Part shown: piece after piece, positions 1 to 18,103 of the stretch
Layout: every line of letters starts with the position of its first letter
Position numbering within the stretch: the first letter of the stretch is position 1
Source of the DNA: Sporopachydermia quercuum
Lineage: Eukaryota; Ascomycota; Sporopachydermiomycetes; Sporopachydermiales; Sporopachydermiaceae
NCBI GenBank assembly: GCA_001599295.1
Contig: BCGN01000010.1
Span: 1 to 64,000, forward strand
Length of the DNA: 64,000 nucleotides
Direction of reading: 5' to 3'
Notes under the pieces: generated by a model
What the model saw: the letters and a program-made list of their open reading frames with translations, nothing else
Databases searched by the model: none
Told to the model about the DNA's origin: nothing
Program-made: the position numbers and the translations under genes

Positions 1-95
1 CCCAACTACCTCCCAACTACCTCCCAACTACCTCCCAACTACCTCCCAACTACCTCCCAACTACCTCCCAACTACCTCCCAACTACCTCCCAACT
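1..95. repeat. Telomeric tandem repeat, 11-bp unit
   Basis: Eight perfect copies of CCCAACTACCT (1-88) are followed by a partial ninth copy (89-95), after which the sequence becomes non-repetitive. The C-rich strand reads 5' to 3' into the chromosome at the very start of the contig, the orientation of a left telomere; the G strand is AGGTAGTTGGG. I did not find the unit again in the window. The unit differs from the human-type TTAGGG, from the roughly 10-bp Yarrowia repeat and from the 23-bp Candida albicans type. Telomere identity is inferred from position, strand bias and perfection. Confidence 0.85.
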
Positions 96-1248
96 GCAGG
101 TTTTATTTTTTGAGCATAAGATCTAGTTTCACTGTTGTCCATTTTCATAAACACATGCAAGTGAATTAGCAATAATTGGCGATTCATTATTCAAAGGATG
201 GTAAGATAATGAGCAAGTGTGCTGTAGTCTTCTGTTGCAGCAGGACAAGAGAGGAATGACCAAATGAATATGAATTCCCAATATTCATCATTTTTTTTCT
301 CGGTATTGAAAACCAACAAGTAGCCAAATTCAGCAAAGGTATATTCCTATAATTCAAATCCCCAATAATTATGTTTGACACTTCTGATAGATAGAAATAT
401 ATCCTAACCCTATCAGTTAATAACAGTACCTTTTATTTTTTTTTGTTCAGTCATTTTAACGTTTCGCTTCATTTGTTTTTTCAACCGCGTCCCATCTCAT
501 ATCAGTCACTCCATTAGAGAAAGAGTTATCCAAATTGTTACCTGATGACGCAACAGAAACGTAGAGAGCACTTAAAGCAAGAATATGAGCTACAGAAGAG
601 ACTATAAGAAATCATCCAGCATTTAGTTCAATAGTGGGTCATAGCTGATTGGAAATAAATAGAAAGCGGTTATTAAGAAGAGTTCGGCTACTAACTGATT
701 GAAAATTTTTTAAAAATTAGACTGCTCAGTCATCGATTCCTTACATATCTTTTAAAACATATCTTACAAGAGAGGGGAAGCATCGAGTAGAAGAGATATA
801 AAAAATGGGATTAGATCCATTCCATAACAGGATTCCAATTACCAAAGAATTGTTATGTTAGATATGCGAATGAATTACCTATTGCTGTTCAAAAGTACAG
901 CGTTGGTTTGGTATAGCGATTCCCAATGACATTGGTTTAATTTAACCACTATACTCCCTAAGAGATGATTGCCGGGAATAAAAGGATTCGAACTAATATC
1001 TCAACTTAAATTAAAGTGAATACCTAATCTGAATTCAATATCTCAGAGTCCACAATTGTAATCAAAGTGACAAAACATAATATCACAAACAACTGATTCA
1101 GTAATTCGCAAACACACCTTCTGACGACTTCTTCTTATTTATCAGCTAGGACTTCTATCAATACAAGTTCTCGGATGTCTAACCAGTCCAAATGTAGATA
1201 ATGCTATGTAATCTCGGCTTCACCGCTTGCGAGATTTCTTTGCCCCAC
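96..1248. other. Subtelomeric spacer, no gene seen
   Basis: About 1.15 kb of AT-rich sequence between the terminal repeat and the first gene. No convincing open frame, no tRNA, and no X- or Y'-like repeated element is visible; the longest open stretches are about 60 codons and look random. The short distance from terminus to first gene implies a compact subtelomere at this end. Confidence 0.6.
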
Positions 1249-4092
1249 CTAGTTCATTACTTTGAAGTACAAAGAGTCGATTTTGTTCCAGAAATCATCG
1301 TCCAGGTTGAAATCCCCCGTGAGTTGAATGTCGTCGGCCAAATCGACTTCAACAGCCTGTTCGCCGAACACATCGATCCCCGCTCCGGCGGGGCCAGCTT
1401 GCGGGACAGGCGTGGCACAACGGCAAGCCGACGAAGAGGATATGTGCCTGGTAGAAGTTGTGCCAGAACCTAACTCCAAATAGTTGCAAGGGTTTACTCT
1501 AACCGGGAAAAAGAGGGGCCGGATATGCCCGTTTGCTTCGGGTTCGGGTTCGATCTCGGCCTCTGATTCGGCTCGCCGTTCAGCTTCACCCTCCTGTTCC
1601 GGGTCTAGTTCCCCTTCTGTGTGTTCTGATCTTTTCCGCATTCTCCCTGTTCCCGCTTTTTCGGCCTCTCCATTCACGAAATTCGACAGGTTCATCCGCT
1701 TATCGGATCCAGGCCGCTTCCCTGGAGTTCCTCCTCCCATTGCCTCTCCGGACCCCGCTCCCTGCCCGATCGGAATCTCCTGGTTATACAAACTCGTCTC
1801 CAGTAGCTTGTCGAACAATATCCGGAAACTGTCAGCTTTTTTCGTCCGTTCCGAGAACACATATAGAAGCATGGAACAGTGTCGGATGTAATTGTGGAAA
1901 CGCCAGTGTCCCGCCCGCCGTACTGTTCCTGTTCCTGCCCCTCCTTCACTAGTTGTCCCACTAGCTGCCTCTAGATTCACTATACAATAGGCCAGTGTCA
2001 CCCCCACCAAGAATATCGTATGCAGGGAAAACATACTAAACCCAAATATGGCATCCTTGTACAAATCCAAATAGGCTCGGCATACTCCGCCCGCCGCATC
2101 GCAGGTCATCACCAGCAGCTCGCACTTTTCCCCGGCATCGGCAAACTGCCGGTTCATCAGCCGGGTAAGCAGAAGGAGCAACTTGGCTCGATGATAGCAC
2201 AAAAGCAGGTATTCGAACGGAACTGTGTATTTCATGCCCTTATTGAACACTGCGGGGTCGGGGAGCTGCAGCTTCCACAGTTCAAGGTCCCGGATGAGCC
2301 CCGCGTACTCCTTGGCAAAGCACTTTTTACCAATAGCCATGGCGGGACCGCCGGAGCCGCTACTGGCACCGGAGGAACTGCGGGGTACAGGGGAGTGGCA
2401 TTTGCGCTCCAAATTGGTGATGTTTCCTTCAATCTCCCGAATCCGGCACAATTGGACTAAATAGGAAGTCAACGTGACCCGGTCAGGAAGAGTTACTCGG
2501 TGTGATCCGAGTTCCGCCTGTTTCCGCTGCTGCGCCAGCTGCAAATCCCGTAATTCCCCAATTGGAATATCCTCCACACACTCAATACTGAGAGGATAAG
2601 GCACATCGATCTCGGAGTCGGAGATTAACGCGGGACGACCCAAAATCAGGCACAAAAGCTTCTCAAACGCATAGACAGACCAAAATAGCCGCTTCATCAG
2701 CTCATATTCCCGAGCCGTTTTTTCTACAGGGTACTTGAACCGATGTGCTCCGATCTGCACTAGCTTGCGAATGCCGATGCCCGAAAGCTCCCATACATTA
2801 AGTGCGAACGGATTAGCTGTATCATAGCAGTAAATGAGGCACAAGGAGAGGGACATTATGAGGCGGATTTGCTGGATTGAGTCAAGCGGGGCAGGGATGC
2901 GGGACAGGTGGTGGAGGACGCGGCGAAAGTACGTTTCCGGAGCGGGACAGTTGTTGGTTTTGGACAAACGGGCGAGCCGACATCCGGTTGCTAGGACGAG
3001 AAAGGCTAGGCATTTGTCGTACTCGGACCCCCCATGCGCATGCGAGATATTGTCCCTTTCCCTTCTGGATTTCCCGCGGGAGAACTCGGGAAAAAGCCGC
3101 TTCACAGTGCTCGGCTCAATAAACTGGTACCGCTGACATATGAAATTCAAATACAGTTTCACAAACAGCGGTTCCGACATCTGCGATGCGGTTTCGACCC
3201 ATTCGGCCCCGGAGTCCAGCTTCGGCTTTTCCGCCTGTATTTGCCGGGCCGAACTTGCTGAGTTTGCCGAGTTTACCGAAGCGTCGTGGTAATTGTTGCC
3301 GAGCATCAACTGTTTAATGGCGTTTACTTTGGAGATGATGGCCGTTGATCCAATGTAGGTGTTTTCCGGGATTTTCCGGTTCAGGAGAGTCCAGATCGAT
3401 TTGAGGAAGATTTCCGTCTGGGAAGGTGAGGCAGAAGTGGGGACGGGGTTGGGTATATGGAATCGGAGGGTAGCGTTTTCCTGTTTTATCACTTCGAGCT
3501 CGGCAGTGAGCTGGGCGATCCGGGCGTTGAGGACTTCGGGAGAGTTGGATACAGAAGTGGGAGTAGGAACCGAAGAAGAGATTTCGGCAGACAGAGTGAC
3601 AGGATCTTTAATGGAATTGTCATTTCTTTTAACACCAGGGCCAGGTCCCCCGCCAAACTGTTGAAACGTCTTGTTGCTCTCAGTTGCCCCGCTCAACGGA
3701 GATTCCTGCGGGGTATGCGAAGTCTGTGGGGAATCTCCTGACGGAACAGGTACTCCCCCAACTCCGGCCGCAGCTTCGGGAACTCCTGGAACACTATAAA
3801 ACATACAGGATGAGTACACACACTTGTTTTTTGACTTGCTGCAGGTTGCACACGGAGAGCGCCCGTCGCATTTCTTCTTCCGCTTCCGACACCGGTCGCA
3901 AGCAGCAACGACCCGCTTTCGTCTTTTACTGCCCGGTAGGGGTGTGCAGCTTGCGACCAGCTCATTTGCAAGTAGCGGGGTAGAAACATGCCAGGAGTAT
4001 TCTTGGTCCGTAATCATTGATGGGGCAGAGTTGCTGACCAGCGCAAATTTAAGATTGGCGGAGAAGTTCAGAAGAAGATCGGAATGTACCAT
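1249..4092 (-). CDS. Zn2Cys6 fungal transcription factor (candidate regulator of the subtelomeric cluster)
   Basis: The open frame reaches 4221 but that codon is TTG. In-frame ATGs are at 4092 (947 aa, used here) and 4017 (922 aa); the latter leaves a 39-residue lead before the zinc cluster. The binuclear cluster is a textbook CX2CX6CX5CX2CX6C (starting ACDRC, ending NKCVY), preceded by a basic KRRKR stretch. A Ser/Pro linker and a heptad-like segment (ARIAQLTAELEVIKQEN) follow, suited to dimerisation. The middle carries the fungal transcription-factor homology region. The C-terminus is Glu-rich and ends in an acidic, aromatic stretch (DDIQLTGDFNLDDDFW) that looks like an activation domain. 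It is the gene nearest the telomere and points the same way as the three catabolic genes behind it, so a pathway-specific regulator is likely. The true target is not known from sequence. GC content is higher than in most of the window. Confidence 0.9.
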   Translation of the reverse strand: MVHSDLLLNFSANLKFALVSNSAPSMITDQEYSWHVSTPLLANELVASCTPLPGSKRRKRVVAACDRCRKRKKKCDGRSPCATCSKSKNKCVYSSCMFYSVPGVPEAAAGVGGVPVPSGDSPQTSHTPQESPLSGATESNKTFQQFGGGPGPGVKRNDNSIKDPVTLSAEISSSVPTPTSVSNSPEVLNARIAQLTAELEVIKQENATLRFHIPNPVPTSASPSQTEIFLKSIWTLLNRKIPENTYIGSTAIISKVNAIKQLMLGNNYHDASVNSANSASSARQIQAEKPKLDSGAEWVETASQMSEPLFVKLYLNFICQRYQFIEPSTVKRLFPEFSRGKSRRERDNISHAHGGSEYDKCLAFLVLATGCRLARLSKTNNCPAPETYFRRVLHHLSRIPAPLDSIQQIRLIMSLSLCLIYCYDTANPFALNVWELSGIGIRKLVQIGAHRFKYPVEKTAREYELMKRLFWSVYAFEKLLCLILGRPALISDSEIDVPYPLSIECVEDIPIGELRDLQLAQQRKQAELGSHRVTLPDRVTLTSYLVQLCRIREIEGNITNLERKCHSPVPRSSSGASSGSGGPAMAIGKKCFAKEYAGLIRDLELWKLQLPDPAVFNKGMKYTVPFEYLLLCYHRAKLLLLLTRLMNRQFADAGEKCELLVMTCDAAGGVCRAYLDLYKDAIFGFSMFSLHTIFLVGVTLAYCIVNLEAASGTTSEGGAGTGTVRRAGHWRFHNYIRHCSMLLYVFSERTKKADSFRILFDKLLETSLYNQEIPIGQGAGSGEAMGGGTPGKRPGSDKRMNLSNFVNGEAEKAGTGRMRKRSEHTEGELDPEQEGEAERRAESEAEIEPEPEANGHIRPLFFPVRVNPCNYLELGSGTTSTRHISSSSACRCATPVPQAGPAGAGIDVFGEQAVEVDLADDIQLTGDFNLDDDFWNKIDSLYFKVMN

Positions 4093-4895
4093 CAGGTATT
4101 TGTGGAACTGTGGGGTGTAAGGAGGACAAATAGAAGAAGAGCGGTGCGGAAGTTCCGTTGTACAAGTATGATGAGCGGGAAGAGAATGAGGAAAAATTGA
4201 AAATATGTTTATGGAACACAAAAATATGGAAGATAGAGATAAGGTTAAGGTTAAGCTTAGAGTTTGAGATACTTCGCTTGTTGAATGATTTACACTTTTA
4301 AATTTTTAGACCGATCTTTTATTTAAGGTTTTCGGGCTAAAACTTTAATAATATCTGCAGCGACATGCCGTATGATTAAACTGTATTCTCATAATTGGTA
4401 GTCGGTCGTTTCTTCTCTCAATCACTTGATCGCTTGCTGATAGCTCTCCATTCTCGATTGTATTACCTCATTTATTACCTGTTTTGTTAATGATTCATCA
4501 CTACTTTGAGAATGTATACCTACCCGTTTGAAGAGTAGGAAATGCTGGTTTTGAAAAGCACACGAAGCGAGCAGGAGAAGCAAATGTCGCCTGGAGGATG
4601 CTGCAAATTATACACACCTCCATGCATACGCTGGTAGCAAAGCTGCCTTAGCGTATCACAATTAGAGAGTATTACTGCATAAAAGTGACTATGAGATAAG
4701 AGCCTACTGTAATATAGAACTACGAACAAAGAATATAAAATTGCTATATTAAATAGTCAGGAAAGTGACTTGTTTAACTGGATTTCAATAGACGGTTTAG
4801 TAGAATAAGCTGATCTGATGGGAAATAAGGTGACACTCATGCACATATTTACACACATCTGCAGCCTTAAGACAGTATCTAACACGGAGCAGAAC
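4093..4895. other. Intergenic spacer/promoter of the first Zn2Cys6 gene
   Basis: About 800 bp between two minus-strand genes. It holds the 3' flank of the flavoenzyme gene and the promoter of the regulator, including the TTAAGG-type repeat at 4241-4255 and a GTCGGT half-site at 4401-4406. No open frame here looks like a gene. Confidence 0.5.
4241..4255. promoter_or_regulatory. TTAAGG-type direct repeat upstream of Zn2Cys6 gene
   Basis: AAGGTTAAGGTTAAG lies about 150 bp upstream of the ATG at 4092. It is one of four such elements in the window, each upstream of one of the four subtelomeric minus-strand genes (others at 6478-6499, 12401-12415, 16685-16703). The role is inferred from recurrence only. 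Confidence 0.35.
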
Positions 4896-6191
4896 TCAAA
4901 GCTTGGAAACCGGCATCTTAGGTAGAAACTCGGCTGTCGCCAAATCAAAATGCTCCCGAGGCAATCGAGAACTTCCTTTGCCCTTGAACTCGGGATCTTT
5001 CTTCCATCTCCATACAGCTTCCAGCTCCTTATCGAGACCCCCGTAGAGCTTTTTATAGATATGGGTCCCAATATTAGGCAGGAACTTGAAAGCATGCGAA
5101 GTGTCCCCAGTGCAAGCGTATACTCCGCTGTAACCGGCAAACGGGACCTTGTCAATCAGGAAGAAGGAATCACAAGAATCGGCAGCCCAGCAGGTTTTGC
5201 TGTCAATTAACGGATGTTTCGACAGCTCGGGGACCATCATATCTAGCACAAAACGGATGTCGGCTTCCGCCTGCATGGGAATTGTATCATGAGGAGATTC
5301 CGTTTGGTAACGAGCCACAGTAATTTCCCTTCCCGGGACGAATTTATCTTCGGTTATGGCGTATCCGTCTTTCGTAGTAGCGACAATTTTGATTCGTTTT
5401 GTTTTTGCCTCCGGCGGGAAGAAATAGCCGAATTGGGCCGAGAAAAAAATGGGCATGTCTTTGTACTTTTCAAATTCGGCATCCGAAAGCTGAATATGCG
5501 ACACAAATGAACACCAGGTCCGAGTTTGGTTGTCCAACGGAAGAAGCCGGTTTGTAGCCGCCCCGCAGGAGACTAAAATCTTCTCCGCTGTGTATTTTTT
5601 ACCGGATTTAACCTCTACGGAATGGTCCCCGAGCCCAACAGCCTGACCGTCGTTTCCGAAGGCAAACTTTACCCCGAACAGCTTGGCTTGCTCGTAAGCC
5701 TTCCGCAGTGCATTGGCGGCCAGACCGACTCCGTTGTCCCGGTTGTAGATGCTACGGAACTTCGCGGGCAATTTATTTTCGCGGAAATGCGAGAATCGGG
5801 ATTTCACGACCTCTGAGTCGGTGATAATCTCCAGTTGTTGTTTGATATTGAGCTGTTTAAGGTTTTTCAGCGAATTGACTTCGTAGATGGCCCGAGTGGA
5901 CTCGGAATCGAACGGCGACAGAGTCAGTCTCCCCGAACGGACAAAGCAATCTCGGTACAAGGGGTCGTTTTCCCACATTTGGAAGGCCTCGTAGGCCAAT
6001 TTGCAGGTAATCAGATCGCTGTATTCCACGCGGACTATCTTGTTGAGGTCGTTAGCGGCAGACCAGGGAGACGGAGGCTCGTAGGCGTCAATACATAGCA
6101 CGGAGTGGCCGAAACGACCCAATTCAATAGCAGTGGAGAGCCCGAACACACCCGCACCGACGACAATTACTTCATACTGAGTGGGCGCCAT
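4896..6191 (-). CDS. Peroxisomal FAD-dependent amine oxidase, amadoriase / sarcosine oxidase family
   Basis: 431 aa from the ATG at 6191; the frame extends to a GTG at 6248, but the ATG start puts the dinucleotide-binding motif near residue 10 as in the family. The N-terminal Rossmann motif is VVGAGVFG, followed by the ribose-binding acid (LCIDAYEP) and the family's PSPWSAANDLNKIVR segment. Near the end, a Cys at about residue 360 (VYACTGDTSHAFKFLP) sits where fungal fructosyl-amino-acid oxidases and sarcosine oxidases hold FAD covalently. The last three residues are SKL, a canonical peroxisomal PTS1 signal, which suits an H2O2-producing oxidase. Known substrates in the family include fructosyl amino acids, sarcosine, pipecolate and saccharopine; the sequence alone does not decide among them. 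It lies between the cluster's regulator and the 5-oxoprolinase-like gene. Confidence 0.9.
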   Translation of the reverse strand: MAPTQYEVIVVGAGVFGLSTAIELGRFGHSVLCIDAYEPPSPWSAANDLNKIVRVEYSDLITCKLAYEAFQMWENDPLYRDCFVRSGRLTLSPFDSESTRAIYEVNSLKNLKQLNIKQQLEIITDSEVVKSRFSHFRENKLPAKFRSIYNRDNGVGLAANALRKAYEQAKLFGVKFAFGNDGQAVGLGDHSVEVKSGKKYTAEKILVSCGAATNRLLPLDNQTRTWCSFVSHIQLSDAEFEKYKDMPIFFSAQFGYFFPPEAKTKRIKIVATTKDGYAITEDKFVPGREITVARYQTESPHDTIPMQAEADIRFVLDMMVPELSKHPLIDSKTCWAADSCDSFFLIDKVPFAGYSGVYACTGDTSHAFKFLPNIGTHIYKKLYGGLDKELEAVWRWKKDPEFKGKGSSRLPREHFDLATAEFLPKMPVSKL

Positions 6192-6429
6192 CTTGAAAGG
6201 AAATTGGTGTTCTAAAGTGTTAATGGAGGTGGAATTGGAAAATGGCACAGTTTAAGGAATAATATGGCTAATATGACTAATAAGAGCTCTGAATAGCGAG
6301 CATAAACGTGTGGTGCTAGGGAAAAGTTTTATATGAACAATTGTGCTGTGTGGATGTTGAAAACCAGTTGAACAACATGATGAGAGAACAGATTTGCAGG
6401 ATCAATTCGTAATTATGGGAAGTAAGCTT

Positions 6430-6442
6430 GTCGGAAGCTCCG
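6430..6442. promoter_or_regulatory. CGG-N5-CCG inverted repeat (Zn2Cys6-type site)
   Basis: CGG at 6432-6434 and CCG at 6440-6442 with a 5-bp spacer (AAGCT), starting in the half-site GTCGGA (6430-6435). It is about 240 bp upstream of the flavoenzyme ATG. Inverted CGG triplets with fixed spacing are the classic target of Gal4-type dimers. The same 5-bp spacing recurs upstream of the oxoprolinase-like and permease genes. Confidence 0.45.
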
Positions 6443-6477
6443 ATGCTGGTTTCAGTTCCGAGGGAAGAGATCATATC

Positions 6478-6499
6478 TAAGTTAAGGTTAAAGGTTAGG
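6478..6499. promoter_or_regulatory. TTAAGG-type repeat upstream of flavoenzyme
   Basis: Starts TAAGTTAAGG and continues TTAAAGGTTAGG, giving three imperfect GGTTA-type units roughly 290 bp upstream of the ATG at 6191. It is the least regular of the four copies of this motif in the subtelomeric island. Confidence 0.3.
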
Positions 6500-7759
6500 T
6501 TGCTTATCTCTCATCGGTTACCAAAAAAGGGGCCCGCCCGCTTATCTTGAAACCTTCCCAGTACAGAAATGTGATAGCTTTTGAGTTCAGAGGTGAGAAT
6601 CAAGAATATGCATATACGTGCAGATTGCTCACATATATTATTGATTATGTAATATTGTATTCACAAGAGCTGACATGCAATTAGTTGAACAAGTTGAATA
6701 GACCCGTACAGAGCAATAGTATCAACATACACAACCACGATTTACATGCTAGCAATGTCGCAGATATAAATAACTACGTCCGGCGTGATAGGGTACTATA
6801 TCGCACTTGAACTAGAGAATGTTATATAACGAAGTCTCTAAAACTACAGTTTTAAGTAATCATATCATTGTAAGCGGCGTATACGAGATCAGTAATATAT
6901 TGATCATTCGTGATTTTGTACTTTGACTGCTGTTCGTTCTGGAAACCATGGTCTTGATTACCTCACTCTTGAGGAACGCGATTCAGCGCAAGACTATTGC
7001 ATTATGTTTAGATCTTTGTGGTCCGTCTCGTCTTCTGGAAATACGGGGAGTGTACAAAAACATGGGCGATCCACAAGAGTATTCTTCCTGTCTGTGACAC
7101 ATTGCAAGTATCACTCAGAATATATATACAAGTTCTAATGCATATGGTACATCGTATGTGGTTGTAAGATGATTTGAAGTCCCAAAATGTAGGCCGTGAG
7201 ACCATTATTATGTCATTGGGCCACTAGTTATAACCCTTCCTTCGTAGATTATGGGTGCAAAGTGAGATGAGATGAGCTGAGTATGAAGTACATGTGGAAA
7301 CAGGAAGACTTTGGGAAAGAAAGAATGCGAAGCAATTGTATCAAAACATCATTATAAGGTTGCAAGAGTTAGTAATAAAGCGATTCAGATGTTTTATTAT
7401 CCAGTGCTATTGTCACTTGCTATTTCCTGGTCACTTACCAGGATTCTAGTCAATCGAATATGATAAATATGCAATATTCAAATCAAATAGCAATCGATAG
7501 GCACACTTCGCTGGTTTCTGCAGTTTGACGACACAGTATCCTGTGTTCTCATTGTTAAACCGTTGATCAATTGCCAAATTCATGGCCAAATGTTCAATTT
7601 CTCACCTATAACCTCTTGAATCGCCCTTGTCTACACTTCTACACTCTCCTTACGAAGGCAAACAAAACAAATAATTTTATTGTATCAACACTCAAATGAT
7701 AGCAACACCAGCTCGCGAACAAACACAGCATCAACACCAAAACCCCAATAAACACACCT

Positions 7760-10700
7760 CTACTGAGAAGTGTTGGCCAAAACTTCACGGGCGGCAAATG
7801 AACCACCCGCCAAAGGCTGAACAGCATAACACGAGTAGTTGGAGATCGTGGCGATATTGAACTCATCGTAATCATCAAACATATTCTCCTCTCTTTCCTT
7901 TCGTGCCTTTTCATCCTCACCATATCCACCTCCACCAGGAGTGGCAATACAGATCATCTCGCCTTTTTTCACCATGAATTGAGCAAACCCAGGCAAATGG
8001 ATCCATCTCACTTTGCCATTCTTCACCCGGCCTAGCTTATTTTCACCCATAGCTCCAGGTCCACCCCCATAAAGACCGTACGGACAGTTGACTCTTCGCT
8101 GGGATCTCAGCGTGATACTCAGCTCTTCATCGAACTCATACAAACGCAAGAGACCATCGCCACCGTTCCATTTGCCCTTTCCCCCAGAATTGGTCCTTAA
8201 AGAGAACTCCCGTAATAACACAGGATACCGCTTTTCCAGAACTTCCGGATCGGTGATCTTGGTGTTAGTCATATGGCACTGCACACCGGACCATCCGTGA
8301 TGACCCCTGGAAGCACCAGAACCACCACCAATGGTCTCGACCATGGCAAAACCGGGTTTCATCTTCTTAGTGATAGGATCAATCCCACCTTTACCGAACG
8401 TGATGGTATTGTTGCTTCCTGTGGAGGCAGCACAGAGACCAAATGCTTTCAAAATAGTGTCATTGAGTCTTTGGGCTGTGATGGAGTTCGCTGCTGACAC
8501 AGCAGCGTGTTCGCTGGGGTTAAGAATGCTTCCTTCCGGGACAATCACCTTTACAGGCACCAGACAACCTTCATTCAGAGGAATGTCCTGCGCGAGCATC
8601 AACCTCAACGAGTATATCACACAGGCATGAGTGATAGCTATCGGGGCATTGCAAGGAGAAAAGGCTTCGTCAGAAGAACCCTCAAAATCAAAAATGGCCT
8701 CCCCAGTTTCTTCGTCGATTTGGATGGTCACTTGGATCACTGAGCCGTCATCAAGGATTTCCCGAGCTCTCAAGGGCAGCTTCCCGCGATGCTGCTTCGC
8801 AGTATGCTTCAAGAACTTCCGCACGGCAAGCTCGGCAGTACTCTTCATGTTAGACATATAAAACAGAACAGTAGCTGTGCCGTATTCTTGGAAAAGGTCC
8901 TTAACCAAGTTCACTCCTTTTTGATTGGCGGCGATTTGAGCCTTCAGATCAGACAGGTTATCGTTAAGATTTCTTGTGCCGGAACAGCCAGGATACTGTG
9001 CCGGATCCTCGACAAAGAACTTGTTGACCCCATCGTAGTCGAAAAGACCATTAGAAACAATCTTCCAGTGCTTGAATTGGGCCCCCTCCTGGTACAACTC
9101 CGTGGCGTCAGCAGCACAGGATCCGGGGGCAGAACCACCGATTTCAGCGTGATGGGCACGCGAGGCGGTGAAAAATCTCAAATACCCGTCAATGAATACA
9201 GGAGAAATCAACGTGATATCTGGCAAATGTGTGCCACCTGCTCTGGGATGATTAGAAGCCAGAATGTCTCCAGGATGTAAATCGTGTTCCCAGTGGGCCT
9301 TGGCATACTTAATACAGTGTGACATTGAACCCAAATGTACAGGGACATGAGGGGCATTAGCAGTGAGGTTCCCGTCCCCGTCGAACAGGGCGCACGAGAA
9401 ATCTAACCGCTCCTTGATATTAGCCGAAATGGCGATCTTCTGCAGGGTAATTCCCATAGCTTCTGCAATGGCCATGAATCTGTTCTGGAACACAGCCAAT
9501 AGAATAGGATCCACTACCAGAGAGATAGAAACAGCATCCGTATTCGACAAGCTGAGGATATCTAGGGAAGATTGAGAGGACTCTGTCACGTACAAGCTTT
9601 CCGGGTCAGACGACAGGGAAGAGGTTTCGCCGGCCTCCGAAGCAGAAGCGGATATGGGTGCCGAGGCGAGGGGAAGATCCTCGGAAGTGGTTTCGCAAGT
9701 AACAATTGCCATTCCTGCTACTGTTGCCGCAGCCTCCATCGCTGTCCCGTCCAACACAATATGCCTAGGCAGAACAATCGCCTGCCAACCAGGATTCACC
9801 ACAATAGTCTGGGTACTATCAAGCAATATCGCAGGACCATCCACCTTGTCTCCCACCGCCAATGCGTCTATCTTATACACATACGTCTCACATAGCTGAC
9901 CCTTCTCGCTGCCCTTCAAAGGAAACCATACCGGCTGCACTTTCATGTCTTTAATGCCTTTCCCGACGGTTCTAATACTTACCGTCTCTAAATCCTCATA
10001 AGGCGATCGTTCTGATAGCTTCCCAGTGTTTCCAGTGACCCGTACTCGGATATCATGCACCAGCACGTCACGCTTGGGGTCAATGAAGGAAAACTCCCGT
10101 AAATGAGTCTCGTTGAAAAGATCAATGAAATCCTTCTCAACATTGCGAAGGACCATCAGCTTGGTTTCCGAACCTCGGTAGCCCATATTGAAGTAATAAT
10201 CGGCATTGATTGTATTAAGATCAACCCCTTGCAGTACGAGCTGCTGCACCAGGTTTTCCTCTTTTACAGCGCATAACTTCAAAAGCTGGTCACGGGTGGC
10301 TTCCGAGTACACCTCGTCGCAAGGGCTCATTCCCTCCTTGACAATGTCAGCAAGGCCAATTCCGTAGGCGGAAAGAATAGAAGAGTACCGGTGGATGATC
10401 ACCCGGGACATGCCCAAGATGGTGGCCACGTCAACGCAGTTTTGGCCCCCAGCCCCACCAAAACTGGCTAGATTATGCTTGCACATGTTGTATCCTTTGG
10501 CCTCGGTGATGGCTCGGATAGGTTTGGCCATGGAGTAGTTCGCAACTTTCAGGTAGCCAAGGGCAACCTCATAGCTGGTCTTGTAGTTGCCAGGGTTGTC
10601 TTTGTTGATGCGGTCAGTGAGCTCTTGGAACTTTGTATCTACAATATCGTAGTCCAGAGGCTGATCTTCGTTTTTCCCAAATATAGAAGGGAAAAACTCG

Positions 10701-11941
10701 GGCATAATCTTCCCGACATAAAGGTTAGCATCGGTGATGGTTAGTGGTCCTCCTTTACGGTAGCACGCGGGACCAGGATGGGCGGAAGCGGATTCCGGAC
10801 CCACCTTGAACACTCCGTTATCGTAGCTAAGGATTGAACCTCCCCCAGCCGCTACAGTGTTGATGTCAAGCTGGGGAACGGCAATCTCCACTCCAGCAGT
10901 AATACCGTGCAAGACGTAGTCGTAGTGTCCATCGTAACGGGAAACATCAGTAGAAGTACCACCCATATCAAAGCCAATAATTGGAGTTTTCTCCCTATGA
11001 TCATAACAGGTGCTGGCCTCGCCAACTACCCCGCCAGCTGGACCAGACAAAAGAGCCTTCAAGCCAGAAAACTCCGTCCAGGGTGCGAGCCCGCCATCAG
11101 ACTGCATGAACTCAACTCTCGTAGTTTGGTCAAATCCAGTAATGAAACCAGATCTAAATGATTCAATGTATCGTTTGATGATGGGAGTAAGATAGGCATC
11201 AACAACAACAGATTGGGCTCGGGGAATCGCCTTGATTGTAGGCATAAGCTCGTGGGAAGCAATGACAAACTCGAATCCCTGTTCCAAAGCCACTTCTTTC
11301 ACTTTTGCTTCGTGCACAGTATAATTATAACCATGAATAAGGCAGATTCCAAGCGATTCAATACCCTTAGCTTTCAAATCGGCTAGCTTAGTTCTTATAT
11401 CATCCACGTCAAGAGGAGTTATGACCCGGAACGTCTGTTTAGTATTTCCTCGTACATAACGAACTGGGTCTTTCTCGACGTAGAAATCGTAGGATATTTG
11501 ATCTGGATCCTCGCTATAGCCGGCACAAGTGACTCTTTCAATCACTTCGACCACTTCTTCGTAAATCACATCCGGTTTCACGATGTTCATGGCGAAAAGG
11601 TCCGGCCGGGTTTGATCGCCAATGGCAAGAAGATCTTTGAATCCTGCAGTCGTAAGAAGGGCACATCGGGCGCCTTTCCGTTCTAGCAAGGCGTTAGTGG
11701 CCACGGTAGTTCCCAGCCGAATGGAAGCTATGGGAGAGGTGTCTAAAAGGGAGTCTTTCGGTATTGAAGTCCTGTTTATTTTCTCCAGGACTCTTCTGAT
11801 GGCCTCAATATTGGCATCGCGATAATTACTGGGATCTACCGACAGAATCTTGAACACATAGTCCTCTTGGCCAGGAATGACCGCCAGGACATCTGTGAAT
11901 GTTCCACCTCGATCTATGGCAATAGTGACTCCAGATACCAT
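7760..11941 (-). CDS. 5-oxoprolinase / hydantoinase family, fused HyuA-HyuB protein
   Basis: 1393 aa from the ATG at 11941; the frame continues to a TTG at 11968, but this ATG places the AIDRGGTFTDV phosphate motif at about residue 8, as in yeast OXP1. The N-terminal HyuA half has the second actin-like phosphate motif (GFDMGGTSTDVSRYDG) and ITEAKGYN / SFGGAGGQN. The C-terminal HyuB half has RLDFSCALFD, NAPHVPVHLGSM, GGTHLPDITLISPVF and SRAHHAEIGG, and ends in a Gly-rich PGGGGYGED segment. The family hydrolyses 5-oxoproline or related cyclic amides (hydantoins, N-methylhydantoin) using ATP. It is about 100 residues longer than S. cerevisiae OXP1: a Ser/Glu-rich insert of about 70 residues separates the two halves (near 9515-9715), and there is a C-terminal extension of about 50 residues. 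Its neighbours suggest a catabolic role, but whether this is the housekeeping glutathione-cycle enzyme or a cluster-specific paralogue cannot be told here. Confidence 0.93.
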   Translation of the reverse strand: MVSGVTIAIDRGGTFTDVLAVIPGQEDYVFKILSVDPSNYRDANIEAIRRVLEKINRTSIPKDSLLDTSPIASIRLGTTVATNALLERKGARCALLTTAGFKDLLAIGDQTRPDLFAMNIVKPDVIYEEVVEVIERVTCAGYSEDPDQISYDFYVEKDPVRYVRGNTKQTFRVITPLDVDDIRTKLADLKAKGIESLGICLIHGYNYTVHEAKVKEVALEQGFEFVIASHELMPTIKAIPRAQSVVVDAYLTPIIKRYIESFRSGFITGFDQTTRVEFMQSDGGLAPWTEFSGLKALLSGPAGGVVGEASTCYDHREKTPIIGFDMGGTSTDVSRYDGHYDYVLHGITAGVEIAVPQLDINTVAAGGGSILSYDNGVFKVGPESASAHPGPACYRKGGPLTITDANLYVGKIMPEFFPSIFGKNEDQPLDYDIVDTKFQELTDRINKDNPGNYKTSYEVALGYLKVANYSMAKPIRAITEAKGYNMCKHNLASFGGAGGQNCVDVATILGMSRVIIHRYSSILSAYGIGLADIVKEGMSPCDEVYSEATRDQLLKLCAVKEENLVQQLVLQGVDLNTINADYYFNMGYRGSETKLMVLRNVEKDFIDLFNETHLREFSFIDPKRDVLVHDIRVRVTGNTGKLSERSPYEDLETVSIRTVGKGIKDMKVQPVWFPLKGSEKGQLCETYVYKIDALAVGDKVDGPAILLDSTQTIVVNPGWQAIVLPRHIVLDGTAMEAAATVAGMAIVTCETTSEDLPLASAPISASASEAGETSSLSSDPESLYVTESSQSSLDILSLSNTDAVSISLVVDPILLAVFQNRFMAIAEAMGITLQKIAISANIKERLDFSCALFDGDGNLTANAPHVPVHLGSMSHCIKYAKAHWEHDLHPGDILASNHPRAGGTHLPDITLISPVFIDGYLRFFTASRAHHAEIGGSAPGSCAADATELYQEGAQFKHWKIVSNGLFDYDGVNKFFVEDPAQYPGCSGTRNLNDNLSDLKAQIAANQKGVNLVKDLFQEYGTATVLFYMSNMKSTAELAVRKFLKHTAKQHRGKLPLRAREILDDGSVIQVTIQIDEETGEAIFDFEGSSDEAFSPCNAPIAITHACVIYSLRLMLAQDIPLNEGCLVPVKVIVPEGSILNPSEHAAVSAANSITAQRLNDTILKAFGLCAASTGSNNTITFGKGGIDPITKKMKPGFAMVETIGGGSGASRGHHGWSGVQCHMTNTKITDPEVLEKRYPVLLREFSLRTNSGGKGKWNGGDGLLRLYEFDEELSITLRSQRRVNCPYGLYGGGPGAMGENKLGRVKNGKVRWIHLPGFAQFMVKKGEMICIATPGGGGYGEDEKARKEREENMFDDYDEFNIATISNYSCYAVQPLAGGSFAAREVLANTSQ

Positions 11942-12291
11942 GATTTGTAACGATGAATGGAATAACAAAGCTGAGATAGAAGATACGAGCTGAGATAGTA
12001 AGCCGAATTAAACAATCCACAGTTCAACAATGAGTAAAACTGGATTCATTCTTGTCATTTTTTTCCCTTTCACTGATCATCAAAGAAAAGCGGCCATGGG
12101 ATGAGGCCTAGGGAGTCTTTTAATATCATGGGGCAACCATTGAAAACCAGATTCGATTACAAGCTTCATACATGGTTGAGATTTAGCTTGTTTGCGGATA
12201 GGAACCACAGACCGTTGTATTATTCCCACATTACTACATATAATGTTGGGGTCATTGCTTTTATGGCTTGAAGAGTCCGTTCAAGGATGGT

Positions 12292-12302
12292 CGGCCGGTC
12301 CG
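12292..12302. promoter_or_regulatory. CGG-N5-CCG inverted repeat (Zn2Cys6-type site)
   Basis: CGG 12292-12294 and CCG 12300-12302, spacer CCGGT, about 350 bp upstream of the ATG at 11941. Same geometry as the sites upstream of the flavoenzyme and the permease. Confidence 0.45.
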
Positions 12303-12363
12303 CTTGCTGGAAGCATCATTTGGGTGAAAATCAGACCAGTGGTTACATACAAAAATCAAACAT

Positions 12364-12379
12364 GTCGGGAGCATCCGAC
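12364..12379. promoter_or_regulatory. GTCGG-N6-CCGAC palindrome
   Basis: Perfect 5-bp arms around a 6-bp spacer (GAGCAT), about 420 bp upstream of the oxoprolinase-like ATG. The arm on the right, TCCGAC, is the same half-site seen upstream of the flavoenzyme and permease. The spacing is one base longer than the other sites, so it may be a weaker or different site. Confidence 0.35.
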
Positions 12380-12400
12380 AGCCTCGAAACTTCAATCTGT

Positions 12401-12415
12401 TTAAGGTTAAGGTTA
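12401..12415. promoter_or_regulatory. TTAAGG-type direct repeat upstream of oxoprolinase-like gene
   Basis: TTAAGGTTAAGGTTA, two perfect TTAAGG units plus a partial third, about 460 bp upstream of the ATG at 11941 and only 21 bp from the GTCGG palindrome. Confidence 0.35.
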
Positions 12416-14384
12416 TTTTTTAAGTGTTTATGCTGTTGTCTTACATGCGCTCTGTCAAGGACCTTCAAAGCTTATCAAGCTGCTTCAAACTCGTTGCTTA
12501 GTCTGATATCAGCAAGTAATGTTTTTATGGAATTTATTTCATGTTGGTGAAAGAGCGTTTTACCACTTGTAAAGGTGTCGGAGGCGAAACTGAAAGTGGA
12601 ACCGCTGGAAGGACAATTAGGTTGTTACTGCAAGCAGTGCATGAAGTCTCTATAGTCTGCAGAAAGGGAAAATCACTAGAACTTTGATTAGAGTCTAAGA
12701 AAGGGTATTCTGGAATGCTTCGCTAAGAGCATGGCTGTGCGTTACTTGTTTATTGACAGTTAATTGATACGAGGTTGATTCATTTATGTAAAATAGCTCA
12801 AACTAAAGTAGGATTACACTATTCGAGTATCTAATAAATAGCTTAATGTAACTCAAATCGAACAATGTAATATTAACAATGCATTGAGATTACGAGTCAG
12901 CCTTTCTGGATTAAAATTGAGTTCTACTATAAATTAAAGTTAGTAATTTAGAGAAAAACTACATAATGTAGACAGATTGAACTTCAATGATGATTCAACA
13001 ATATGAGCAACTGTTATAGTAAAGACTACGGGTTATGCTTGAATAGATTCTGATTTCAACTAGAAGCCAAGTCTAGTTTCACAGCTTAGTATTTAATGAA
13101 CCACCTTCTGCTATAAGAAAAAATAATTTCAGGTTATGTCATTCAATTCACACTATCTGATTTGAATGGGAGAATTAGGTTTCCATGCTGAGTAGAAATT
13201 CTTGAAAAAGAAGTTGCATGAACTTAATTGCATTAGCGATCAAAAGATCAAATGGTGCTTAGAAAACAACAAAAGTGGACTACCTATATGGTTGTTCTTA
13301 GATCAGTGGAAAGCCCCAGTTAAAAAAAAAAAGTAATTGGGGTTGGAATTTGGGGAATCAAACTAATAGACAGGACCGACACTTGGTAAAGAAAGAAAGA
13401 CTAATCGTCATTATTTATTAAATAGGTACTGTATATAGTAACAGTTCAATGTAATATACAAGCCTAGTATGATGATACAATCGTTATGATTTGCATCTAG
13501 TAGTCTCATTTGGAGTGTACTATGTCTTATAAACCTACATTAATTCTCTCCAACTTCTACATAGTATTGAGTATCGTTTGACACTGACTTTCAGCTACTC
13601 CTAAGTTAAACCATTGTATGCGGTACCTTATTTTGGAGGTACTGAACAGCCAAAATCATCGAAATATCATTACCCGATGATGATAATGAACTGAAGAGAT
13701 ATCCAAGCATCTCACTTGAAGTTTGGGAAAAGAATTACATCTATTTATTCAAAGGGATAATACGCTCCAAGGAGTGATAATCAAAAAGTACGATGCTCTC
13801 ATTCCTTTCTCGATCATGAATAAAGTGAGTGCATCAAAATCTGTCAAGAGCACTGCTTGTTTAACAGCTGCCCTAGGATGAGATGGAGATGCTCAGAATA
13901 CAGGGAAAAGCCTCTATGAGAATTAGCAATATGCTTATTCTCATATGGTGACACTCTACTTACACTTCAGTTGTCAATGATCTTTCTTGCCAGGGTATCG
14001 GTTCTTGCTAAAGAGTCCCAGTATAATTTGAAGAATTAACCCAGGTGGTATTAGAAGGTGATTACTCCTATTTACGAAATACAACTATTTGTGAATCATT
14101 GAAAAACCATAAGTAGTACCATATAGACGTATTTTTATACCATGCAGCGTCAAGAATACGAAATCGAAGCTTCGTCATCCTACAACAAAAGCAATGCAGA
14201 GCTCAAATAAAACGGGACACAGTCCTCCAAAAAAAATAGAATTATCGTAAACGACTATCCGAAAATCAATATCGATAAGAATAAAATAGACAAAAAGAAA
14301 TACATAAAATAGACACTAATATTTAGGTACAATACTCAAGCAGCAGCTCAGTAGCCGCTCGTTGAAGACTGGAGATTCAACAGA

Positions 14385-15962
14385 TCACCAAACATATCTG
14401 AAATCAATGTTCTGTCTGTCGGTCAGGTCGAAAAACTCAGAGTTTTCCACCTTCACATATTCTCCATTTTGTTTCATCTTCTCAACCAGGGCATCCTTCT
14501 TCTTGTTTTCCCAAATGTTGTAGAAGGTCAAACCGACCAACAAGGCCAAACATCCGCTATAGAAAACAGGTACACAGATTTTGGCCGTCTTATAACTTGG
14601 GGCTTCGGAAGTGATGAAAGTTTGTGGTCCAACCGCAGATCCCACGCAGAATCCAACTAAATACATAGCATTGCACACAACTTTCTTGGTTCGGCCTGCA
14701 ACATTAGTTGATAAACCTGCCAAAGCTGTGATCATTGTTACAGGAGAAAAGCCAATCAAATAGAAGCCAGCAAGTTGAGCGTTCTTGTTTGAAGTAGCAA
14801 AGGATAACATACAACCAGCCATCAAAGTAACACACATTCCGAAAATCGACAAAATCATAGGATGTTTGATAAGCTTGTAGTAATTAAGAACTCCTAGTAA
14901 TCCTAGTCCGCAGAACTGAACAACACCCATTGGTGCCTTCATGATCAACGCTTTACCTACGTCGTATTTGAACGTTGTGTTCAAGAGAATTGCAGCGTAA
15001 GCAGTGATTCCAGAATTAGGAATATCCACGCAAATAGCAAGCATGAAATAAAACCAAGCTCTTGGCTCCAAAATTGCTTCCTTTGCTTGTTGCCATTTCC
15101 ATTTCTTAGAACCGTATCCTTGTTGATTGTCTCTGATCCGTTCAACTGCAAGCTTCTTTTCCCGGTCAGTGTACCACCAAGCTTTACTGGGAATATCGGG
15201 AATGAAGATCACCATGAGAAGAGCAAGGAAACAGGTGGCACATCCCAGAATTAAATAAAGAGCTCTCCAAGCCTTCAAGGCAAAATTTTCTTGATTCTTG
15301 TAAATGCCGTAAGCCATGCATGAACCAATGATATTAGCCAAACCAGTGAAACAGAAGTAGAAACAGGTTCTGCTAAACTGTTCGTCCTTATGGTAGAAAT
15401 TGTTACAAATTAGAGACAACCCTGTCAATAAAGGAGCCTCGAAAATACCCAGGAAAATACGACTGGCAAGTAAACTGCCATAGTTGAAAGTGGCAGCGTG
15501 AAGAGCGAGAACTAAACCCCACATAAACACGTAGAAACTAACCATTTTTGATAGTGGAAGCTTTTGTAGAGTCCAACTTCCAGGGAAAGCCCAAACAAGA
15601 TAACCAATAAAAAACAGAGTGGTAAGCAAACTGTACATTTGACCATGCATGGGACCATCGTCTACTTGAATACCCATGATTGCGGTATAAGATAATGCTG
15701 ATTTATCGAGAAATTGGAAGCCATAAGCAGAACAAACCAAAGGCAAAACAATGAGATCACACTTATTTCTCATTTTGATATTGGTTTCAGGATCAAGAAC
15801 TTCGTGGTTATCAGAAACATACTGAATAGCCATGTCAGTACTTTTTAAGGCCAGTATAGGAATGCTCCGATCGTCTGAAGATGGGACTTCGCTGGATGAA
15901 ACTGCTTCGATGTCCTTCACCATAATTTCGACATTTTCTTTTTTTTCAGAGATAGCCGACAT
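14385..15962 (-). CDS. MFS permease, allantoate/organic-anion (Dal5-Yct1-Thi73-like) family
   Basis: 525 aa, starting at a good ATG. A soluble acidic N-terminus of about 65 residues is followed by about 12 hydrophobic segments. The first membrane segment is followed by FLDKSALSYTAIMGI, close to the 'LDK..LNYA..MGI' signature of the fungal anion:cation symporters such as Yct1, Thi73, Soa1 and relatives. The loop EREKKLAVERIRDNQQG is the usual cytosolic loop between the two six-helix bundles. The likely location is the plasma membrane and the likely substrate a small anionic nitrogen or sulfur compound or carboxylate; it cannot be specified from sequence. Codon use is AT-rich, unlike the regulator and flavoenzyme. 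Being fourth in line on the same strand, and sharing upstream motifs, it is the natural uptake system of the cluster. Confidence 0.9.
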   Translation of the reverse strand: MSAISEKKENVEIMVKDIEAVSSSEVPSSDDRSIPILALKSTDMAIQYVSDNHEVLDPETNIKMRNKCDLIVLPLVCSAYGFQFLDKSALSYTAIMGIQVDDGPMHGQMYSLLTTLFFIGYLVWAFPGSWTLQKLPLSKMVSFYVFMWGLVLALHAATFNYGSLLASRIFLGIFEAPLLTGLSLICNNFYHKDEQFSRTCFYFCFTGLANIIGSCMAYGIYKNQENFALKAWRALYLILGCATCFLALLMVIFIPDIPSKAWWYTDREKKLAVERIRDNQQGYGSKKWKWQQAKEAILEPRAWFYFMLAICVDIPNSGITAYAAILLNTTFKYDVGKALIMKAPMGVVQFCGLGLLGVLNYYKLIKHPMILSIFGMCVTLMAGCMLSFATSNKNAQLAGFYLIGFSPVTMITALAGLSTNVAGRTKKVVCNAMYLVGFCVGSAVGPQTFITSEAPSYKTAKICVPVFYSGCLALLVGLTFYNIWENKKKDALVEKMKQNGEYVKVENSEFFDLTDRQNIDFRYVW

Positions 15963-16593
15963 TGTTTCTTTCTTTTTTATTCATTACAATGTTATTATGC
16001 ACTTGGGGCGAATTGTCTTACTGCTAATGACTGACTGTGAACATGCCTATAGGTTAAAGAGAATTGTAAAATCAAACTACAACTGGACGAACACCAAGAA
16101 AAACAGGTGGATAGCTTTTCAAATAAATATGGGGAAATCAAACTAGGATTATACTTTGATGAGTCGTTGATAGAACAGAAGCAAGTTCTAGTGCTGAGTA
16201 GATTAACTAGGAATTGTATAATTCACTAGTGCAGTCAAGAGAGTGACATACAGCACAGTTAGTAGTAGTTTCCCTAGTTATTTGATTCTATCATCAAAAC
16301 GACGCTTGATAAGCATCATGTTTCTGAAGTAGGGAATGAAAGTCTGTTATCTGAGATATATGTGGAGATATTGTTTTCCTGCCGTTCTATCGGTTGAGAT
16401 TCTTTTAATCACCACTGAAGCTAACCCAGCTTTGCTGATTTTCGGGTTCAACAGTAGCAGAGAAGCGATCAGTATCGGGCTTCAGCGAAAGATATGAACT
16501 GAAACACAACATTGTTTTCAGAAATTTGTAGCTTTCAGCTATTTGAATCATTTTCGTAGGTATACATTAGAGATGAATCGTTAATCGTTGAGG

Positions 16594-16626
16594 CGGGATA
16601 TCCGACAGGAAAACGATCATGTCGGA
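16594..16626. promoter_or_regulatory. CGG-N5-CCG plus everted GTCGGA half-sites
   Basis: CGG 16594-16596 and CCG 16602-16604 with spacer GATAT form the same inverted geometry as upstream of the flavoenzyme and oxoprolinase-like genes. The right half is TCCGAC (16601-16606), and a second half-site GTCGGA follows in the opposite sense at 16621-16626. The cluster lies about 640 bp upstream of the permease ATG. Confidence 0.45.
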
Positions 16627-16684
16627 GAGATTAGATTGGATCTTATCTGGATTGGGAAGTAGGAAAAGCAGGTACAGGATTCTC

Positions 16685-16703
16685 TTTAACCTTAACCTTA
16701 ACT
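16685..16703. promoter_or_regulatory. TTAAGG-type repeat (inverted orientation) upstream of permease
   Basis: TTTAACCTTAACCTTAACT, i.e. the same repeat on the other strand, about 725 bp upstream of the permease ATG and 60 bp from the GTCGGA pair. Confidence 0.35.
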
Positions 16704-18103
16704 GTAATCATAAGTATATTGGTTTGGAAGGATTTCCAGGATATAGAGAAAGGGCTTTGATTAATATGATGTTTATTGTTTGATTGTTATACAACGTAAT
16801 ATAGTGCTAAGTGTGTAGTATTGAAGAGTGACGTATTGCAAGTTGCGATGTTAGTTCCATTTTCTGTTTAATTGATGCTTATCTTATATGGTATTGCTTT
16901 ATGGAGAATTTAACTGTCCCCAAAGATTGTATGGAAGTCCATTTATGCAGGGAAGAGAAGAGTAGGTGGTTATTTAATGAAATTGCATTAGCTGATTGGA
17001 TGAGATGAAGAAAGGAATACTGCAAGAAAATATTATGTAGTTCAGAAGCATGGCAATGATTGTTTGAAGATTAATAGTTGTAGTCTTCAAAAAAACTATT
17101 TGATTATCACTTAATCGGCTCAGTTCGTCAGTATAAGCGAACAGCTAATAACTGATTGGAAAGACGCACCATTTTCTCGTTCTACTCCTATTACCAATTA
17201 TTATTTGATATTAATTATTGGTCGTATGTTATCATATGTCAGAAGCATGTTGATTTTTGTTTCATGGTTGCGTCGTAATGACTGAATAATTGACTTCCAT
17301 ACTACCTCGTTCAATCCCAATAAACTACTAGATCTCTCTCTTTTTCTCCTATGTTCAACTATTTGCACGAAGTTTTTATTACTTACAACAACTCTACTAG
17401 ACCTTCAATTGCTCCATCACTGTGGGACATGCATACTAAGGAGTCTGAGATATAGCAACTCTTATGCTAGTGCTGATAAGGCATGGATACTGACGGTCAC
17501 CACCAACGGTCACCAGCAAAATTTGTACTTGTGAAGGTATACACTTTCTGTGGGAGGATCTTCTACATTCAGGATCTCTAGGACGACATTTGAGAGTTTC
17601 TCCATATGAGATTTCCTTCGTTTTATACCTTTCTTCACGCCTATTTGTTATCTCCCGCGGTATCGTCGAGTACGCAATCTTCATTTGCTAAGGAAATGTC
17701 AATCACGTGATAACATTGGACCTGTTTGTCCACTTACGAACTATGTCCTCCTGTGATTAAAGAATTTGTGTCACGCCCACTGAAACAAGCTCTGAAAAAA
17801 TCTCTGTGTCACTTGGACACTGTCATCTCTTCATGGCTTACTATTTAAAACCCAATACCCATACTTTTTCTCCTACTTCGTTCTTTTTCTTTTTCACAAT
17901 TAATATATAAGGAAAAATCCTTTTGATCGCTAACTGAAGAACATTGTAAAGGAGATTCTATAAGTAATAGAGCACTTCCTAGTTATATTTGACATCTACT
18001 CATCTAGACATCGCTAGCAATTGACTGCGTAGTTTAGAGTAAGTGTTAGCTTAAGGTGTCATCAAGAAAGCTCTTTAGAGAATCGACATTATCGTCACAT
18101 TTT

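Follow-up and report, generated by a model that had tools for sequence, protein, structure and literature searches.

At the left end of contig BCGN01000010.1 (C10) of Sporopachydermia quercuum (GCA_001599295.1), the first four recognized genes all lie on the minus strand and encode a Zn2Cys6 regulator, a flavin adenine dinucleotide (FAD)-dependent amine oxidase, an oxoprolinase/hydantoinase fusion and a permease. The question raised by this locus is whether the cluster is controlled by the regulator that it carries, and through which DNA site. The window analyzed comprises positions 1-64,000 of C10 (64,000 nucleotides, forward strand), in a genome totaling 16,393,282 bases (16.4 megabases). 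Our analysis revealed exactly one CGG-N5-CCG, i.e., a pair of inverted CGG triplets separated by five bases, in each of the four promoters of the cluster. We consider it probable that these genes form a local, autoregulated regulon, in which the adjacent Zn2Cys6 protein would read the site ahead of all four genes, the binding step being predicted from sequence.

Three of the four sites had been reported by a previous reading of the letters alone (the sequence-only reading), which placed each of them 240-640 base pairs (bp) upstream of a structural gene of the cluster. All three are present, at 241, 351 and 632 bp from the start codons of the oxidase, the oxoprolinase and the permease, respectively (Table 1), while the copy in the regulator promoter was overlooked and the window holds 18 copies in total. 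This total, compared with a shuffle mean of 3.0, was discarded as evidence, since 13 of the 18 lie in coding sequence, including six in the three genes nearest to the contig end, whose high GC (guanine plus cytosine) content of 49-53% inflates the coding count. The non-coding copies start at 1215, 4147, 6432, 12292, and 16594. The non-coding DNA of positions 1-18,103 (8,203 bases) thus has five copies, and that beyond (19,542 bases) has none (27,745 in total, 30% of them within the first 18.1 kilobases, kb). The copy at 1215 sits just beyond the regulator stop codon and no function is claimed for it. For any spacing between 0 and 15 other than five, the non-coding DNA of the window has zero to two inverted CGG pairs. 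Genome-wide, CGG-N5-CCG was found 669 times, or once per 24.5 kb, so that the sequence-only estimate of about one per 20 kb was about right, and a reversed control yielded 660. Given that the pattern is common in the genome and mostly coding in the window, only its placement in promoters is informative. On the strand of the genes and with one flanking base, the four sites read ACGGAACTTCCGC, TCGGAGCTTCCGA, GCGGACCGGCCGA, and TCGGATATCCCGC, with CGGA as the first half in all of them.

Enrichment was assessed against a background taken from the same genome. It totals 237,749 bases, and a 100-codon open reading frame rule leaves 111,313 of these as non-coding. The background comprises the window from 19,868 onward, the terminal 43.6 kb of contig C4, 40 kb from a more distant part of C10 and eleven stretches of 10 kb, and it is not a random sample: nine of the 10-kb stretches were picked for a match to the TTAAGG-type repeat described below, and the others surround paralogues or the window. 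Its non-coding DNA contains a single CGG-N5-CCG, located within a transfer RNA (tRNA)-Glu gene. The pattern, which the sequence-only reading did not notice in the other intergenic regions it covered, is very rare in the background promoters, and its enrichment in the cluster promoters holds, the whole-genome scan being without excess. Among the background non-coding segments of at least 400 bp, N5 was found in 1 of 76 and N5 or N6 in 4 of 76. At the background rate, the chance of N5 in all four promoters (803, 1568, 2443, and 2141 bp) is 4e-8. Since the promoters are richer in GC than the background (36-39% vs. 33.5%), Markov models built from the promoters themselves were also used, resulting in 6e-7 (order 1) and 4e-7 (order 2), or about 1e-5 when summed over the 21 spacings from 0 to 20; in 4000 order-1 resamplings, no single spacing ever occurred in all four promoters. 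The choice of motif was allowed for by scoring every trinucleotide dyad at spacings 0-20 (43,680 after collapsing the strands), among which CGG-N5-CCG ranked first in the four promoters (10^-6.7; runner-up 10^-4.2). In random, non-overlapping background quadruples of the same lengths, the best dyad was at least as extreme in 3 of 1500. k-mers of 6-9 bases common to the four promoters included none that stood out (best about 10^-4, against a background partly chosen for TTAAGG). Matches between promoters at expectation (E) values up to 1 are all at most 16 bases long, the longest exact one (15 bases) being the TTAAGG repeat; as only such short matches exist, copying of whole promoters is an unlikely origin of the sites. 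A chance occurrence of the sites in a locally GC-rich contig end could draw on the six coding copies in the three end genes, on a pattern chosen after the fact and on a genome-wide count that does not exceed its control. However, it appears very improbable indeed in view of the composition-preserving promoter models and resamplings, the prominence of N5 among spacings 0-15 and its first rank among all dyads.

Gal4-type dimers read inverted CGG triplets at a fixed spacing, which is 11 bases for Gal4 and 10 for Put3. In the C10 cluster, an inverted CGG pair was found at one fixed spacing, N5, in all four promoters, plus one N6 pair. The regulator matches the Pfam Zn_clus domain with 29.7 bits (cut-off 21), its zinc-cluster cysteines being residues 65, 68, 75, 81, 84, and 91, and a Fungal_trans domain was also matched. 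Four heptads from residue 188 (L-I-L-L-I-N-L-I), read by eye, follow about 95 residues after the zinc cluster. The regulator resembles Gal4 and Put3 in zinc cluster, Fungal_trans domain and inverted CGG triplets, and the heptads may form a coiled coil as in these proteins, but it differs from them in the five-base spacing and in the long stretch before the heptads. In an alignment, its Lys72 stands opposite the Asn of the Pho7 motif, and an excerpt of PMC5559640 equates Pho7 Asn299 with Lys18 of Gal4, a CGG-contacting position. The regulator thus has a lysine at the position that contacts CGG in Gal4. Probably acting as a homodimer joined through a coiled coil, the regulator would bind CGG-N5-CCG ahead of the three structural genes and of its own gene, with the 4147 site mediating autoregulation, and would activate the cluster jointly, presumably when the substrate is present. 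The latter may be an amino acid of the N-substituted or lactam type that serves as a nitrogen source. The adjacent protein had also been proposed as the reader by the sequence-only reading, and the evidence supports this proposal well except for the binding step, which we infer. At an E value of 0.001, no relative of the whole regulator was detected in the protein collection, where 7993 candidates were scored. A regulator without scored relatives is thus connected to a defined site and a small target set, which makes substrate and regulator testable together.

Functional sites could also serve a different Zn2Cys6 protein, such as a general nitrogen or carbon regulator, or the zinc-cluster protein encoded at 23409. 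Other zinc-cluster genes exist in the genome: 17 matches to the regulator were obtained, one being the regulator itself and many being confined to the zinc cluster, and there are two more zinc-cluster genes in the window. Moreover, CGGAACATCCG, in which the N5 spacer is constant, was counted 19 times genome-wide (3 in the reversed control), which suggests another N5 reader and a possible separate regulon. However, the recurrent AACAT/ATGTT spacer matches none of the four cluster-site spacers, and a general factor would be expected to mark other promoters, while the tRNA gene copy is the only one in the background non-coding DNA. A further comparison is provided by a second oxoprolinase-oxidase-permease cluster at C4:1867284-1880698, 23-36 kb from the contig end, whose proteins share 53-57% (oxoprolinase, in aligned parts), 43% (oxidase) and 31% (permease) identity with those of C10. 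The zinc-cluster gene adjoining it is of the Fungal_trans_2 class, and its product matches the C10 regulator over 48 residues only (33%). When the C4 promoters were scanned for CGG pairs and TTAAGG, the N5 site was absent from both the oxoprolinase promoter and the shared oxidase/permease promoter. The two N5 sites in the 43.6 kb of C4 are the tRNA copy, upstream of the C4 regulator, and one within the C4 oxoprolinase gene. The site thus tracks the C10 regulator and not the enzyme families. Together with the N5 site before the regulator's own gene, this favors the adjacent protein over a general factor, and we regard a different reader as rather unlikely. With its different regulator, the C4 cluster represents a natural comparison for the joint change of regulator and site. 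Further along it, an amino acid permease, a PhyH dioxygenase and another Fungal_trans gene were found.

Certain observations weigh against control of the cluster by the adjacent protein through N5 sites. Given the about 95 residues between zinc cluster and heptads and the one N6 site, the spacing need not be as rigid as for Gal4, the pattern is not in excess genome-wide, and the recurrence of CGGAACATCCG raises the prospect that another protein may also read N5 sites. In a permutation with overlapping draws, which inflate the null and were superseded by the non-overlapping version, 20 of 2000 quadruples reached the score. The half-sites that the sequence-only reading described as accompanying the full sites are present at the positions it listed (GTCGGA at 6430 and 16621, TCCGAC at 12374 and 16601, GTCGG at 4401), but TCGGA and TCCGA are not enriched: of their 41 non-coding copies, 9 lie in the first 18.1 kb, where 30% of the non-coding bases are found. 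The TCCGAC at 12374 is one half of a GTCGG-N6-CCGAC palindrome in the oxoprolinase promoter, the one cluster promoter with CGG-N6-CCG. Non-coding GTCGG and CCGAC fall in the first 18.1 kb in six of nine and three of six cases, respectively, partly inside full sites. Across the genome, TCGG-N5,6-CCGA shows a modest excess (203 places vs. 158 in the control) and CGGA-N4-CCGA occurs 265 times vs. 117 (124 + 141 vs. 73 + 44).

The four promoters also have in common a TTAAGGTTAAGGTTA-type repeat, 39-98 bp past the N5 site on the side away from the gene. This repeat could be the main control element, with the CGG pairs being secondary, and two of the six exact 15-mers of the genome fall in the cluster. 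Nevertheless, it shows no excess over the reversed control (18 vs. 17, or 180 vs. 275 with two mismatches), and no CGG-N4..7-CCG was found within 300 bp in ten other fetched loci with TTAAGGTTAAGG, rendering such a role highly unlikely. To our knowledge, no factor reads a TTAAGG-type repeat. The combination of N5 and TTAAGG as a unique composite was rejected, as CGG-N5-CCG followed by TTAAGGTT at 70-100 bases occurs eight times in the genome (two here; control 2). A more elaborate scenario would comprise two old paralogous clusters that agree in their three enzyme and transporter types but lie beside Zn2Cys6 regulators of different classes, with N5 used on C10 only, next to a TTAAGG repeat that a partner protein recognizes, and with a spacing for which no proven regulator was found; taken as a whole, it is conceivable but doubtful.

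By analogy, regulation by the adjacent protein would represent a well-known kind of system, in which a Zn2Cys6 regulator acts locally through inverted CGG sites. UaY is grouped with Ppr1-type regulons, and AflR is also a Zn2Cys6 protein. In Candida albicans, Ppr1 is reported to promote genes of purine catabolism, and its site is CGGN6CCG (PMC11534201). The C10 cluster is similar in the inverted CGG, the short spacer and the one N6 palindrome in the oxoprolinase promoter, while it differs in carrying N5 in all four promoters. With CGG-N6-CCG in just one of the four, the promoters do not show the site pattern of a Ppr1/UaY-type regulon; the zinc-cluster piece of the regulator, compared with the Ppr1 chain, gave an E value of 0.53 only. 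AflR resembles the C10 regulator as a cluster regulator, its site TCGN5CGA recurring in the promoters of its own cluster, as stated in an excerpt of PMC3202775. However, N5 is counted there from TCG/CGA, a frame in which the spacing here becomes N7, or N8 at the second oxoprolinase site. An AflR-type TCG-N5-CGA is not present. By inspection, both flanks occur at two sites only, giving TCG-N7-CGA in the oxidase promoter and TCG-N8-CGA in the oxoprolinase promoter (12365); the three other sites carry one TCG/CGA flank or none. An excerpt of PMC5215518 contains one CGG-N5-CCG pattern in a promoter among other spacings. In open-licence papers, available partly as excerpts and covered by a limited set of spellings (CGGN5CCG, CGGNNNNNCCG and variants), the five-base spacing is described for no proven regulator.

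Table 1. Genes and candidate regulatory elements of the C10 cluster (window coordinates).
Feature	Position	Strand	Remarks
Zn2Cys6 regulator gene	1249..4092	-	947 residues; Zn_clus 64-94, heptads from 188, Fungal_trans 313-520
FAD-dependent amine oxidase gene	4896..6191	-	relatives: fructosyl amino acid, saccharopine and sarcosine oxidases
Oxoprolinase/hydantoinase A+B fusion gene	7760..11941	-	1393 residues
Major facilitator superfamily (MFS) permease gene	14385..15962	-	MFS_1
CGG-N5-CCG, regulator promoter	4147..4157		55 bp upstream of ATG; absent from the sequence-only list
CGG-N5-CCG, oxidase promoter	6432..6442		TCGGAAGCTCCGA with flanks; 241 bp upstream of ATG (6191)
CGG-N5-CCG, oxoprolinase promoter	12292..12302		351 bp upstream of ATG (11941)
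CGG-N5-CCG, permease promoter	16594..16604		632 bp upstream of ATG (15962)
GTCGG-N6-CCGAC palindrome	12364..12379		second site in oxoprolinase promoter
GTCGGA half-site	16621..16626	+	
TTAAGG direct repeat, regulator promoter	4239..4259	+	two overlapping one-mismatch 15-mers
TTAAGG-type repeat, oxidase promoter	6482..6497	+	one extra base
TTAAGGTTAAGGTTA, oxoprolinase promoter	12401..12415	+	
TTAAGGTTAAGGTTA, permease promoter	16687..16701	-	opposite orientation

Concerning its function, the cluster, which lies close to what is probably a chromosome end, is probably catabolic, and the enzyme families suggest that an N-substituted amino acid is degraded, as well as a lactam or hydantoin. The permease is one that we take to resemble the Dal5 group of yeast. 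Close proteins are known from Ogataea, Priceomyces and Yamadazyma. Oxidases and oxoprolinases of the same types carry neighboring locus tags in Priceomyces (2159 and 2161; 4260 and 4259) and Millerozyma (001419 and 001420). In a comparison of 20 selected proteins, the C10 oxidase was closest by bit score to the Priceomyces 2159/2161 pair and both C4 proteins to the 4260/4259 pair, while the highest identity of the C10 oxoprolinase was with an Ogataea protein (67% over 727 residues). Based on the paired locus tags and the two-way matching, the linkage of oxidase and oxoprolinase looks old and two cluster types seem to exist. No literature was found joining oxoprolinase, sarcosine oxidase, gene cluster and yeast; for fructosyl amino acid oxidase with oxoprolinase, only an Aspergillus genome paper turned up.

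At positions 1-95, the contig itself carries an 11-bp repeat in 8.6 copies, CCCAACTACCT (read as AGGTAGTTGGG on the opposite strand), and the right end of C4 closes with the same unit on the opposite strand. Its presence at both contig ends examined indicates that it is probably the telomere repeat; the CCCAACTACCT string was not found in a limited literature search. GC content at third codon positions declines away from the contig end, from 0.59 (regulator) and 0.58 (oxidase) to 0.51 (oxoprolinase), 0.42 (permease) and 0.34 (next gene), with the gene at 23409 (0.44) as an exception, and it is 0.28-0.29 in the C4 paralogues. Subtelomeric bias or foreign origin are possible causes of this gradient. 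Finally, 7 of the 12 CTG codons of the oxidase occupy positions at which 40 relatives have leucine as their most frequent residue, consistent with CTG being read as leucine.

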